From positions 1-64,000 of IMG/VR virus record IMGVR_UViG_3300034062_004592: DNA of 64,000 bases, one strand, 5' to 3'. A program made the position numbers and the translations under genes. The notes beneath the pieces were generated by a model that saw nothing but the letters and a program-made list of their open reading frames with translations, did no database searches and was not told where the DNA came from. The DNA is from a virus. Every line of letters starts with the position of its first letter. Position 1 is the first letter of the stretch. Shown piece after piece: positions 17,763-44,219 of the stretch.

Positions 17763-18223
17763 GTCTAAAAATTTGGGATAAACCTTGTTTTACATGACAC
17801 AATCGCACTTTTACTTAAAAGAGGGGCCCTATAGACCCCAAAAAGGGACTAGATTTTCCTGACGCTTCTCCACCCACCCACCCGAGTAGGGTCACGGGGA
17901 GAAAAAAAAGAATGTTGGGAGTGGCAGTGAGAGTAGGAGGGGGTGCGGTGGCACCAACAATCCCCTAACTACGTTATAACGATAGTGTTATACCCGCTCA
18001 CTTCGTTCGCTAGTGCGACGAGCGGGCAAATATATACTGTCGTCCCTACCAAGCCTCAGCCAACAGACAGAACCAACATCCTCGGCTGATACGATTTCGT
18101 ATCGCGCTGCGATATGCTTAGCTACACTCTCCTCCTGTTTTCAGGAAGAACTGTTGTCAATACTGGGTTTTCGGGGGCTGCGCATCCGTACAACGCAGAC
18201 ATTCCATTGCATTCAACTTTAAG
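17763..18223. other. 461-bp non-coding leader of the early block
   Basis: No convincing gene on either strand. It contains a C-rich stretch with CCACCCACCCACCC (17872-17885) and an A8 tract, a small GGTGC/GCACC hairpin near 17946-17955, and hairpin TATAAC/GTTATA near 17975-17992. There is also a strong compound hairpin at 17993-18026 (outer CCCGCTC/GAGCGGG, inner TCGC/GCGA) and GATACG-ATTT-CGTATC near 18086-18101. The concentration of structure before the early genes suggests a promoter/leader or origin region. Confidence 0.5.
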
Positions 18224-18403
18224 ATGGACATCTTCTACACCATTGTTACCAAGGAAGCAGCGTATTACTTCGTTGCTAACTCACAGTACAACCTGGTGCG
18301 TATCACACGCTTAGTCCTCAAAGGACAGAAGGGATACCACCGTAGTACCACAATGTCAATCGACAATGGACGCGAGTTCGCTCGCAGACTAAAGGCCAAG
18401 TGA
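18224..18403 (+). CDS. Small early protein, unknown
   Basis: 59 aa from ATG 18224 (begins MDIFYTIVTKEAAYYFVANS), a compact beta/alpha protein with a basic C-terminus ending LKAK. The leader CATTCAACTTTAAG-ATG has no Shine-Dalgarno but resembles the A/C-rich leaders of later genes. No family recognised. Confidence 0.55.
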   Translation: MDIFYTIVTKEAAYYFVANSQYNLVRITRLVLKGQKGYHRSTTMSIDNGREFARRLKAK

Positions 18404-18416
18404 GTAATAACTCCCT

Positions 18417-18435
18417 GCCAGGTGTAAAGCCTGGC
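18417..18435 (+). other. Intergenic hairpin
   Basis: GCCAGG-TGTAAAG-CCTGGC, 6-bp perfect stem, 13 nt after the preceding stop. First of two structures in this gap; no T tail. Confidence 0.6.
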
Positions 18436-18441
18436 TTGGTC

Positions 18442-18471
18442 ATTGCCCAGCACGTAGGGATGGGCTCCTAC
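18442..18471 (+). repeat. 30-bp structured leader repeat, copy 1
   Basis: Perfect 30-bp match to 18721-18750. Two interleaved 5-bp pairings are possible: GCCCA (18445-18449) with TGGGC (18461-18465), and GTAGG (18454-18458) with CCTAC (18467-18471). They form either a tight pseudoknot or two mutually exclusive hairpins. It ends 16 nt before the ATG at 18488. Confidence 0.75.
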
Positions 18472-18487
18472 ACAACAACTCAACACC

Positions 18488-18679
18488 ATGCGTTACCAAT
18501 TCCCTAATGCAGCCACAATTATTTGTGTTGCAGCATTGATCATTGGTGTAGGCACACAAGTGTCAGTGCATCAACTTGAAAAGGCAACAGCACAGCAATG
18601 TGCTAACCACGATTGGCCTAAGGAAGCACACGAGGTTCACATGGCCTGGTGTGCAGCCAATCAGTATCCAACCAACTGA
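18488..18679 (+). CDS. Small membrane or exported protein
   Basis: 63 aa (begins MRYQFPNAATIICVAALIIG). The N-terminus is a signal-anchor: short polar start then a hydrophobic run ending near VGTQVS; the rest is hydrophilic with two Cys. Leader is AACTCAACACC-ATG with no Shine-Dalgarno. It may be a membrane peptide acting on the host envelope; family unknown. Confidence 0.55.
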   Translation: MRYQFPNAATIICVAALIIGVGTQVSVHQLEKATAQQCANHDWPKEAHEVHMAWCAANQYPTN

Positions 18680-18695
18680 GTACCAGGCGTGAGCC

Positions 18696-18712
18696 GGGGG
18701 ATCGAATCCCCC
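18696..18712 (+). other. Intergenic GC hairpin
   Basis: GGGGG-ATCGAAT-CCCCC, with a 7-nt loop. It resembles a tRNA T-arm by chance or origin, but no acceptor, D or anticodon arm surrounds it. It precedes copy 2 of the 30-bp leader repeat. Confidence 0.6.
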
Positions 18713-18720
18713 ACTTAGTT

Positions 18721-18750
18721 ATTGCCCAGCACGTAGGGATGGGCTCCTAC
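18721..18750 (+). repeat. 30-bp structured leader repeat, copy 2
   Basis: Identical to 18442-18471, again placed 16 nt before an ATG (18767) and again behind a simple hairpin. Conservation at two sites with the same spacing suggests a cis-acting translation or processing element. Confidence 0.75.
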
Positions 18751-18766
18751 GCAACTCAGTTCAACC

Positions 18767-18925
18767 ATGGCTATTCGTAAGACTCTTGCTCAACAATTCT
18801 CTAAGGCTGCCAAGGCTTTGGAGAATGACAAGAGCAAGGAACGACTGGGCGCAGCAGTAATTGTTGCACGTGTGGCTTTGGCTAACACGATCATGCCCAA
18901 GAAGTTTAACTACCCAACCAGGTGA
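18767..18925 (+). CDS. Small basic early protein
   Basis: 52 aa from ATG 18767 (begins MAIRKTLAQQFSKAAKALEN, ends KKFNYPTR). Helical and basic. Leader AGTTCAACC-ATG, no Shine-Dalgarno. Function unknown; small basic early phage proteins often bind host RNA polymerase or nucleases, but nothing here shows that. Confidence 0.55.
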   Translation: MAIRKTLAQQFSKAAKALENDKSKERLGAAVIVARVALANTIMPKKFNYPTR

Positions 18926-18956
18926 GTAATAGCTCCCAAGCCAGGTGCAATACGAT

Positions 18957-19025
18957 GCTTACTGTGATCTCTACCCGAATGCTTGGATAGAGATTGTAAG
19001 CAAGGGAGACTACGATTCAGTAGTC
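18957..19025 (+). other. Two intergenic hairpins
   Basis: A long hairpin (GCTTAC-ATCTCTA paired with TAGAGAT-GTAAGC, 18957-19001, 13 bp in two blocks) is followed by a compact one (GACTAC-GATTCA-GTAGTC, 19008-19025). This repeats the pattern long hairpin plus small hairpin found before neighbouring genes. Confidence 0.65.
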
Positions 19026-19615: not shown

Positions 19616-19671
19616 CCGTTGATACGAATTCGTATCGGCGGTAGGTTTTCTACAGGACTCAACATCCTGTA
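19616..19671 (+). terminator. Terminator-like hairpin plus CTCAACA-loop hairpin
   Basis: CCGTTGATACG paired with CGTATCGGCGG around an AATT loop (11 bp with two G-T pairs, 19616-19641) and a short T tail (TTTTCT). Then TACAGGA-CTCAACA-TCCTGTA (19651-19671), whose core is repeated at 20114-20130. The inner part is a 16-bp perfect palindrome in DNA. Confidence 0.7.
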
Positions 19672-20156: not shown

Positions 20157-20465
20157 ATGCCAGTCACTATTGATCACAAAGAACTTCAAGATGCACTGGA
20201 AGAGTTTAATATTCGTCCGGCAGATTACTATCTGTCGTTTGACACCAATGTTCTTTACCTCGTTTGGTGTACAAACGGCGCTAATGCCGTTCGTCTCGTA
20301 CACAACAACGGGTGTATAGACATTGAAATCAAAGGCGTATGGCATGAGGAAATTCCTGAAGGTTACATCCTTCCTTCATACGCATGCGTACGTTACATCC
20401 TTGCCGGTGCCGTACTTGGCATCGACATCACCTCACCTAACACCACTACACAACAACTGACATGA
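20157..20465 (+). CDS. Early protein with shared C-terminal tail
   Basis: 102 aa from the ATG at 20157 (leader ATCTCAACC-ATG). It begins MPVTIDHKELQDALEEFNIR and looks like a small alpha/beta domain. It ends with GAVLGIDITSPNTT, the same peptide that ends the next gene's membrane segment, from a 42-bp nucleotide duplication. It overlaps the next ATG (ATGA). Function unknown. Confidence 0.6.
   Translation: MPVTIDHKELQDALEEFNIRPADYYLSFDTNVLYLVWCTNGANAVRLVHNNGCIDIEIKGVWHEEIPEGYILPSYACVRYILAGAVLGIDITSPNTTTQQLT
20405..20446 (+). repeat. 42-bp coding/leader direct repeat, copy 1
   Basis: Matches 20590-20631 with one mismatch (33 bp perfect at the 5' side). It encodes the end of one protein and runs into an A/C-rich stretch before the next start. 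Confidence 0.85.
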
Positions 20466-26149: not shown

Positions 26150-26377
26150 ATGCCTGATTACACTGACGATCAACTACTTGCCATGGCAATGGCAAATCTT
26201 GGTGAGTACATCCATGACAACTCACCACATTACATTCTGATTGAAGAAGATCCTCGCAATGAGGATGACTACGATACGTGGAGTTATGGCTGTGAGCCAT
26301 TGCCACATGATCACACTTGGCAACACACATCAATTGATGTGAGTGTAAGCCCAAGTGATGGGGACATGGCGGAATAG
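26150..26377 (+). CDS. Small acidic protein ending inside the tRNA gene
   Basis: 75 aa from ATG 26150 (begins MPDYTDDQLLAMAMANLGEY); the upstream GTG at 26135 is less likely because it lies in the terminator stem. Acidic, His-rich centre. Its TAG stop lies in the D-loop of tRNA-Leu, so 18 nt are shared. Function unknown. Confidence 0.5.
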   Translation: MPDYTDDQLLAMAMANLGEYIHDNSPHYILIEEDPRNEDDYDTWSYGCEPLPHDHTWQHTSIDVSVSPSDGDMAE

Positions 26378-26445
26378 GTAGACGCAACGGACTTAAAATC
26401 CGTAGGCCATTGGCTGTGAGAGTTCAAGCCTCTCTGTCCCTACCA
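26360..26445 (+). tRNA. tRNA-Leu (anticodon UAA)
   Basis: 86 nt with encoded CCA. Acceptor GGGGACA/TGTCCCT (one G-U), D arm GCG/CGC, anticodon stem ACGGA/TCCGT with loop CTTAAAA (anticodon TAA), class II variable arm GCC/GGC, T arm GAGAG-TTCAAGC-CTCTC. The long variable arm and UAA anticodon fix the identity as leucine. It likely supplements decoding of UUA/UUG in the AT-richer phage genes. Confidence 0.97.
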
Positions 26446-42906: not shown

Positions 42907-44219
42907 TGCGTGATTGCCTGGAGGGTGCTGTTGGGGAGGCGCTGGGGCCAGTAGGTGAGGCGGCGGATGGTGCCTCCTTTCTGTACAACAAAACTACTAT
43001 CTCCTTGAATCGCAAGCCTGCTAAGGGTTGGCATGGACGATGGGTTTGCACTTGTAGAAACAGCAGAGCCATTGCAAGAGAGCCCTCTTCCGCTGGCGGA
43101 AACTGCCAACGCAGCTCGGTTCAAAACGTTTGCCGTGAATGTCCCACCAGCATCCATTCGCCCTTGGTTTGCAGATGCAACAAGCATGTTTGAGCTTACT
43201 CTTTGATTGGCTACGCTAACGCTAAATAGATTGATCGAATTGTTAGCGGTTTCGTCATCAATAACAACAATCGAACCTCCAACTGCTGGCTGATCGTATG
43301 CTGCAAACACCGTCCCCTCATCCTGCCGATACCAGGAGCTGAAGTTCGCCCCCGTGATGCTGGCAACGTCCGCGCTGCGGGTGGCGGCTGCGGTTGACGT
43401 TGGGATCGCACTGGTCGCAAATGCACCCAGCTCTAGCTGGGGCAGGCCGATGCGGAGGGTGATGTCAACAGCCAAGCCAGTGTTAATGTTGCATTGAATG
43501 AAAGGCATAAGGGCGGCTACAGTAGCCCCTCCCGATAGTGTTCTAGTAAACGATGGCCTATAAGACCCCAGTGGTGTAACAGGAATAGTCATGTCCTGTG
43601 TGCCACTAACCACCGCAACACCTGCTGATGTGTTTTCCTGCAAAACAAGGCGAATGTTTGTGAAATTAGCGGTTGAGCCAGCCTGCACTTTGATGTAGTT
43701 CGTTAGCGTCCAGGCCTGCCCAGTTAAAGCTGGCACACCCGTGGCGGTTTCAAACACAATGTTTGTCTGACCTGTGCCTGTAGTTGTGCCGTTAATGCGA
43801 AAATCAATGTATGTAATTCCATTTTCCGTGCCGGTGCCGACTACATTTGCCGCTAGACCCGTATTGTTTGACTGGTTCCAATTTGTTGGAGGTGTCCCCG
43901 GCGTACCAGCCACCGCGCCAACCATCGTGTTGTTGCGGATGCTGTTGGTCCTCTGCTCCTCCACCAGCAGGCCCAGGCTTTCGCCGGTTGTGGGGTTGTG
44001 GTCAAACCTCGGCACATCCACAGCCGCCGTCTGCAGCGTTCCCGCACTGTCGATGAAGGTCGCACTGCTGGCGCGGGTAAACGTAACTAAATTTTGCCCA
44101 GTTGCAGAATCAATTAAACTTTTAGTAGACGCAAAGTTTAAATCAAGGGCAGAATTTTTAAATATAGTAGAGGCAAAGTTTCCAGCTGTTAAAGCTTTTA
44201 AATGAGGAAGTATAAACAT
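42903..44219 (-). CDS. Tail fibre / head-spike-like protein
   Basis: 438 aa. N-terminal segment FTRASSATFIDSAGTLQTAA and DVPRFDHNPTTGESLGLLVE are characteristic of phage fibre/spike modules of the concanavalin-like type, followed by beta-rich Thr/Ser/Asn repeats and a C-terminal domain (PQRLPNSTLQAITQ). Likely receptor binding or decoration. Confidence 0.7.
   Translation of the reverse strand: MFILPHLKALTAGNFASTIFKNSALDLNFASTKSLIDSATGQNLVTFTRASSATFIDSAGTLQTAAVDVPRFDHNPTTGESLGLLVEEQRTNSIRNNTMVGAVAGTPGTPPTNWNQSNNTGLAANVVGTGTENGITYIDFRINGTTTGTGQTNIVFETATGVPALTGQAWTLTNYIKVQAGSTANFTNIRLVLQENTSAGVAVVSGTQDMTIPVTPLGSYRPSFTRTLSGGATVAALMPFIQCNINTGLAVDITLRIGLPQLELGAFATSAIPTSTAAATRSADVASITGANFSSWYRQDEGTVFAAYDQPAVGGSIVVIDDETANNSINLFSVSVANQRVSSNMLVASANQGRMDAGGTFTANVLNRAALAVSASGRGLSCNGSAVSTSANPSSMPTLSRLAIQGDSSFVVQKGGTIRRLTYWPQRLPNSTLQAITQ

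Follow-up and report, generated by a model that had tools for sequence, protein, structure and literature searches.

A covarying tRNA-like structure coupled to a pseudoknot between small cyanophage genes, with predicted cutting by host RNase Z

To our knowledge, most of the tRNA mimics described in viral RNA come from RNA viruses of plants, and no tRNA-like part is known for the cyanophage RNAs manA and wcaG. The nearest viral mimics of the tRNA elbow, in which T-loop residue 56 forms a Watson–Crick pair with D-loop residue 19, appear to be the tRNA-like structures (TLSs) of tymoviruses (PMC4810234). The manA (RF01745) and wcaG (RF01761) motifs are structured RNAs that occupy putative 5′ UTRs in cyanophages (PMC2864571). 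The nearest functional precedents for the element described here are probably the plant mitochondrial t-elements, tRNA-like sequences at mRNA ends that direct cutting by RNase P and RNase Z, together with mascRNA, which is cut by the same two enzymes (PMC11658184). Searches of part of the literature turned up no account of tRNA-like elements lying between the genes of a phage, which falls short of proving novelty.

The window analysed here is a stretch of 64,000 nucleotides from the 85,462-base virus record IMGVR_UViG_3300034062_004592, whose remaining 21 kb were covered as two further loci (L101 and L102). An earlier note had reported an exact 30-bp duplication placed 16 nt ahead of two ATGs, and both its coordinates and its uniqueness in the window were borne out. 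The 30-mer ATTGCCCAGCACGTAGGGATGGGCTCCTAC occurs at 18442–18471 and 18721–18750, with no third site in the window even when three mismatches are allowed, and 16 nt separate its 3′ ends from the ATGs at 18488 and 18767. The expectation from shuffling was 0.00, which rules out a chance repeat. The hairpins before the two copies, which had been described as unrelated, are in fact two sequence versions of a single tRNA-like fold, and the identical stretch starts at the very nucleotide that adjoins the 3′ end of this fold (A18442 and A18721). Comparison with related sequences shows that each 30-mer forms the 3′ half of an intercistronic cassette whose 5′ half is a covarying TLS. The proposed cis element with interleaved helices is supported, but the larger 5′ half around the upstream stop codon had been missed. 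The GUCCGUAAACACGG hairpins of two related loci (L002 and L003) are the D-arm-like part of this same TLS.

The cassette consists, in order, of the P1 5′ strand, the P2 hairpin, a T-arm, the P1 3′ strand, the trinucleotide N-U-U, a pseudoknot or hairpin, the RBS and the start codon. The TLS is a three-way junction in which P1 is acceptor-like and overlaps the upstream stop codon, P2 is D-arm-like and the T-arm has a true 7-nt T-loop. Only these three parts are present and the anticodon arm is absent.

All features of both window copies lie on the + strand. In copy 1, the P1 5′ strand GGCCAA (18394–18399) is contained in the last codons of ORF 18224–18403, which ends with the stop codon TGA (18401–18403), and it pairs with the P1 3′ strand UUGGUC (18436–18441). 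Between these strands lie the P2 hairpin GAG-UAAUAA-CUC (18402–18413) and the T-arm GCCAGG-UGUAAAG-CCUGGC (18417–18435; 7-nt T-loop at 18423–18429), so that T-stem and P1 give 12 bp below the T-loop. The discriminator-like A18442 is followed by UU (18442–18444) and by the pseudoknot (18445–18471), in which S1 is formed by 18445–18448 and 18462–18465, S2 by 18454–18458 and 18467–18471, and the loops are L1 AGCAC, L2 GAU and L3 U; both helices covary. An A/C-rich leader of 16 nt (18472–18487) extends to the ATG of ORF 18488–18679 (63 aa).

In copy 2, the P1 5′ strand AACUGAGU (18674–18681) holds the stop codon UGA (18677–18679) and forms 8 bp with the P1 3′ strand ACUUAGUU (18713–18720). The P2 hairpin GGC-GUGA-GCC (18686–18695) and the T-arm GGGGG-AUCGAAU-CCCCC (18696–18712) are supported by alignment A2 and CM R2, and T-stem plus P1 amounts to 13 bp. 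A18721 and UU (18721–18723) precede a pseudoknot identical to that of copy 1 (18724–18750; S1 18724–18727/18741–18744, S2 18733–18737/18746–18750), and a second 16-nt leader (18751–18766) extends to the ATG of ORF 18767–18925 (52 aa). CM R2, which was built without the window, detected copy 2 with 62.4 bits (E 1.1e-10), and CM R3 detected copy 1 with 28.2 bits (E 0.00047). A degenerate third TLS (18918–18966, + strand), recognised from its sequence and from repeat D13, lies 3′ of ORF 18767–18925. It retains the 5′ half, namely the GAGUAAUAGCUC hairpin and GCCAGGUGCAAU, and the missing 3′ half of its T-stem has apparently been lost through recombination.

Among deposited phages, similarity to this region and to the family consensus cassette was confined to Synechococcus phage S-EIV1 (KJ410740). 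Two cassette copies are recognisable in the genome of the window and two in S-EIV1, with no other sites in either. Scanning IMG/VR with the proteins that flank the element gave 80 and 14 loci. Of the 46 loci that continue for 3 kb or more past the 3′ side of the anchor gene, 41 carry between one and nine cassettes, and in all anchored loci the cassettes lie ∼0.5–3.5 kb from that gene, near the start of one operon. The ORFs downstream of cassettes are short (median 63 aa). The common pseudoknot pattern matches at least 120 IMG/VR stretches, whereas a scan of 257 Gb of genomes from bacteria and archaea gave no match; among the matches listed, nearly all distinct stretches with this pseudoknot carry the same upstream TLS module. 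Freshwater cyanophages place a TLS and a knot-shaped fold between the small genes of one operon. Two pseudoknots from the same locus are identical more often than expected (26 of 129 pairs, against a permutation mean of 9.5, sd 3.1), and the exact duplication in the window can therefore be read as ordinary within-genome homogenisation, probably through gene conversion or recent copying.

Other repeated sequences were observed in the neighbourhood. A leader hairpin GGGGCUGCGCAUCCGUACAACGCAG (window 18173–18198; L001 3830–3854; L104 ∼460–500), conserved in S-EIV1 and other relatives, is found near the start of the cassette operon, sometimes with a pseudoknot or TLS directly 3′ of it. Palindromic sequences of the GATACGAATTCGTATC type form intergenic repeats at 18086–18104 and 19619–19637 of the window and are also present in relatives. 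Long direct repeats occur at 20402–20446/20587–20631 (45 nt, 96%) and 21630–21672/21923–21965 (43 nt, 100%), and their location among neighbouring small ORFs suggests repeated cassette exchange in the region.

A pattern search of S-EIV1-like IMG/VR phages produced ∼320 matches, a set of 323 cassettes in which some chance hits are expected. P1 is fully paired in 66% of this set, compared with 5.5% when the letters are shuffled. The pairs of P1, P2, the T-stem, S1 and S2 were counted in alignments of two structural classes. In A1 (37 sequences), 97.9% of cells are paired and changes on both sides are seen in 15 of 25 pairs; in A2 (33 sequences), the values are 96.4% and 15 of 23 pairs. The slid controls reach at most 46% and 49%, respectively. 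Plain MFE folding was uninformative (z −0.8 to −1.6) and the support for the structure rests on covariation, which strongly favours the proposed cassette fold.

S1 and S2 are paired in 100% of cells in both alignments, with double changes, and occur as four pair sets for S1 (GCCT/AGGC, GCCC/GGGC, ACCC/GGGT and ACCT/AGGT) and 17 for S2. Two interleaved helices, each conserved by covariation, are consistent with an H-type pseudoknot. Both helices of the earlier note can form, as GCCC/GGGC and GTAGG/CCTAC, and are interleaved; where the note drew GCCCA/TGGGC, covariation delimits a 4-bp core, RCCY/RGGY. Loss of the element, or breakage of both helices, among relatives had been named as the observation that would count against it; instead, both helices are kept via compensatory changes, which supports an element acting in cis on translation or RNA processing.

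The retention of S1 and S2 fits a pseudoknot, and two alternating hairpins would also be compatible with the covariation. A riboswitch, or a switch between two mutually exclusive hairpins, could account for the conserved loop residues AGAU and for the ability of S1 and S2 to alternate, and the MFE fold shows S1 alone, though nested folding cannot display pseudoknots. We regard such a switch as very improbable, given that up to nine copies per locus stand ahead of unrelated small ORFs, that the simple-hairpin variants described below have no aptamer-like core and that an Rfam match is absent. None of the Rfam models for riboswitches and motifs of cyanophages (glnA, Downstream-peptide, manA, wcaG and others) reached the gathering cut-off in the window, and the three cassette regions gave no relevant match at E ≤ 10, viral TLS families included. 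The cassettes show no similarity to manA or wcaG, and the family is absent from Rfam 15.

The arm below the T-loop has a nearly fixed length. The boundary between T-stem and P1 shifts (7+5, 6+6 or 5+7 bp) yet the sum stays at 12–13 bp, with 13 bp rather than 12 in ∼17% of cassettes. Likewise, the distance from the end of the T-loop to NUURCC is 12 nt in 166 cases and 13 nt in 35 on the + strand, compared with two and three cases on the − strand. The 7-nt T-loop itself varies among relatives (UGCAAAC, UUCGAYU, AUCRAAU, UGUAARN and similar). An acceptor/T arm of 12 bp, or sometimes 13, with a 7-nt T-loop and covarying helices is what would be expected of a TLS, and we infer that the two parts of the 12-bp arm stack coaxially.

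Covariation also extends to the putative elbow. Here '19' denotes the last nucleotide of the P2 loop and '56' the third nucleotide of the T-loop. For the P2 classes CCG, TCG and GAG, the last being that of window copy 1, the 19–56 pair is G-C in 191 cassettes and A-U in nine, with six distinct loop combinations, i.e. a compensatory change. Copy 1 of the window is among the nine A-U elbows, combining UAAUAA with UGUAAAG (A18410 as '19' and U18425 as '56'). The five exceptions resemble other P2 types or off-register parses. In the same loop table, position 55 tracks position 18, with U55 accompanying G18 and G55 accompanying A18 or C18.

The TLS differs from that of TYMV, with which it shares mimicry of the D/T-loop elbow and the presence of an H-type pseudoknot in a virus. 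In TYMV the acceptor arm is itself a pseudoknot, located at the RNA 3′ end and provided with CCA, whereas in the cassette P1 is a normal two-strand stem, the pseudoknot is separate, internal and 2 nt downstream, CCA is absent and the whole lies inside the mRNA of a dsDNA phage. Compared with a bacterial pre-tRNA, the cassette shares the 12-bp acceptor/T arm, the T-loop, the 19–56 elbow and a discriminator followed by U, as in CCA-less genes, but it has no anticodon arm, a short P2 loop and an overlap with a stop codon. ARAGORN did not detect the cassettes as tRNA or tmRNA genes, and the only match to Rfam tRNA (RF00005) in the window is a tRNA-Leu at 26360–26445. This tRNA-Leu(UAA) encodes CCA and is followed by an ATG 22 nt past the CCA; it is a possible real-tRNA counterpart of the punctuation proposed below.

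The module downstream of the TLS follows the pattern RCCY, 2–6 nt, S2a, (A)GAU, RGGY, A/U, S2b, and is found between many small ORFs. When 194 pseudoknots were collected without upstream criteria, a TLS was present at 15 or 16 nt in 178. In 176 of these 178 elements UU lies directly before S1, although UU was not used in the search, and the discriminator-like nucleotide is A in 151 and is followed by UU, not CCA. The nucleotide after S2a changes with L3 (AGAU with A in 181, AGAU with G in two and GAU with U in 11), as if an A-A or G-U pair extended S2. About one third of cassettes have, as their second module, a simple hairpin of the GCCACACACUGAGUGUGGC or GCCACAAUCCCGUGGC type, which likewise starts 2 nt past the discriminator position. 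The start codon follows the end of the pseudoknot mostly by 14–20 nt (mode 16) and the hairpin mostly by 10–17 nt.

A start codon within the pseudoknot (the AUG of AGAUGGG, as in the S-EIV1 annotation) was considered and rejected: AUA occupies this place in about half of the pseudoknots (89 of 194, with S1b AGGC or AGGT), the spacings vary out of frame, and both window copies are out of frame with their ATGs. The annotated CDS concerned (KJ410740 CDS 43496–43732, AHV82201; L001 4188) more likely starts at a GTG with an SD, 27 nt downstream. The SD and the start codon that follow many pseudoknots together make up a short inverted repeat (CAGGAGAUUCCUGUG, CAUGGAGUUAUCCAUG and CACGGAGAACACCGUG; for example L005 11378–11396 and L003 4104–4122), and a perfect hairpin of at least 5 bp lies within 30 nt 3′ of the pseudoknot in 84 of 194 cases.

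We propose that the cassettes act as tRNA-like punctuation, at which host RNase Z is predicted to cut the polycistronic mRNA into single-gene mRNAs; we consider this reading about as probable as not (roughly 0.5). The enzyme would bind the elbow, measure the 12-bp arm and cut 3′ of the discriminator-like nucleotide, as on the CCA-less pre-tRNAs of the host, i.e. at 18442/18443 and 18721/18722 in the window. Such cuts would divide the polycistronic message into single-gene mRNAs and leave the upstream mRNA with a tRNA-like 3′ end. Each downstream mRNA would start 5′-UU-pseudoknot, with the fold two nucleotides from the new end, where it could plausibly shield that end from 5′-dependent decay and keep the RBS clear of upstream structure. 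The broader proposal, that this cyanophage lineage hijacks RNase Z through many minimal tRNA mimics, with a pseudoknot capping each cut 5′ end, is put forward a little more tentatively.

Several features of the putative substrate agree with RNase Z cutting. The B. subtilis enzyme is stimulated ∼200-fold by a U within 2 nt of the discriminator (PMC10100781), and contact of the RNase Z flexible arm with the tRNA elbow gives a ∼100-fold gain in affinity (PMC4810234). The cassettes likewise have no CCA and have a U within 2 nt of the discriminator position. As a stand-in for the host we used Cyanobium, which was taken from the Synechococcus host of S-EIV1 and may not be the host of this phage. Both genomes encode RNase Z, and all 32 distinct tRNA genes checked in the two genomes are CCA-less, 30 of them with a U within 2 nt of N73. 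The step from B. subtilis enzymology to cutting in cyanobacteria is an extrapolation. Against cutting, the TLS is without an anticodon arm, neither Rfam nor ARAGORN scores it as a tRNA, and the 13-bp arm of ∼17% of cassettes departs from the 12-bp measure. Cutting must also compete with translation, because P1 would be melted by any ribosome that completes the upstream ORF. The plant mitochondrial t-elements are homologous to whole tRNA genes, whereas the cassette, for which cutting is only predicted, occurs in many copies within phage operons, each coupled to a downstream pseudoknot or hairpin; the mascRNA/MALAT1 tRNA-like element belongs to a human lncRNA and is a single site. We discarded an RNase E site at the UU junction, whose consensus is matched by only some of the variants.

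The upstream stop codon begins inside P1 in about two thirds of cassettes; counted from P1 nucleotide 1, it starts at +2 or +3 in 205 of 303 cases. The CUGA found here is a stop codon, and a hammerhead-like reading of it was dropped. This overlap, together with a spacing mode of 16 nt that approximates where the upstream edge of the 30S subunit would fall, suits a translation-initiation element in which TLS and pseudoknot act on the ribosome and are never cut, whether as a standby site, by docking near the 30S exit or by promoting reinitiation past the upstream stop codon. Some window leaders have no SD sequence, and the tRNA elbow is recognised by ribosomal sites (PMC4810234). We nevertheless find translation without cutting, the main rival of the RNase Z reading, unlikely, as it gives no obvious role to the 12-bp ruler, the discriminator-like position or the near-invariant UU, and as the second module varies (a pseudoknot or either of two simple-hairpin types, at different spacings) while its start is fixed, always 2 nt past the discriminator position. 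A role in translation could coexist with cutting, given the narrow start-codon spacing.

RNase P could instead cut on the 5′ side of P1, or act with RNase Z to release the TLS in the form of a small RNA. The elbow and the acceptor/T-arm are recognised by RNase P, which also cuts viral TLSs (PMC4810234; PMC12710915), and the Synechocystis RNase P ribozyme cuts a viral tRNA-like RNA (PMC5723415). However, the first P1 pair in A1 (AU 15, GC 7, GU 6, unpaired 6) shows no G1-C72 preference, whereas NUU on the 3′ side is nearly invariant, and a 5′ cut would land at the upstream stop codon or immediately ahead of it. The lack of a G1-C72 preference speaks against RNase P being the main reader, although coding constrains the P1 5′ strand, and we consider cutting by RNase P improbable.

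A three-way junction with a pseudoknot loosely recalls exonuclease-resistant RNAs, and each intergenic gap holds two stable structured modules. The cassettes might then serve mRNA stability only, blocking exonucleases (RNase J or 3′ exonucleases) without any site-specific cut by a tRNA enzyme. Blocking alone would not require a complete tRNA elbow with a 12-bp ruler, and the UU spacing is constant; we consider stability as the sole function improbable.

In this lineage of DNA phages, which includes the cultured S-EIV1, a covarying, anticodon-less tRNA mimic recurs as a genetic part. Should host RNase Z cut at these sites, the phages would employ tRNA maturation for mRNA processing, and 'tRNA punctuation' as in mitochondria would have been rebuilt by phages without tRNAs. 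The cassette would then also provide a natural minimal substrate from which to learn the requirements of RNase Z, and a compact, modular intergenic part for producing single-gene mRNAs in cyanobacteria.
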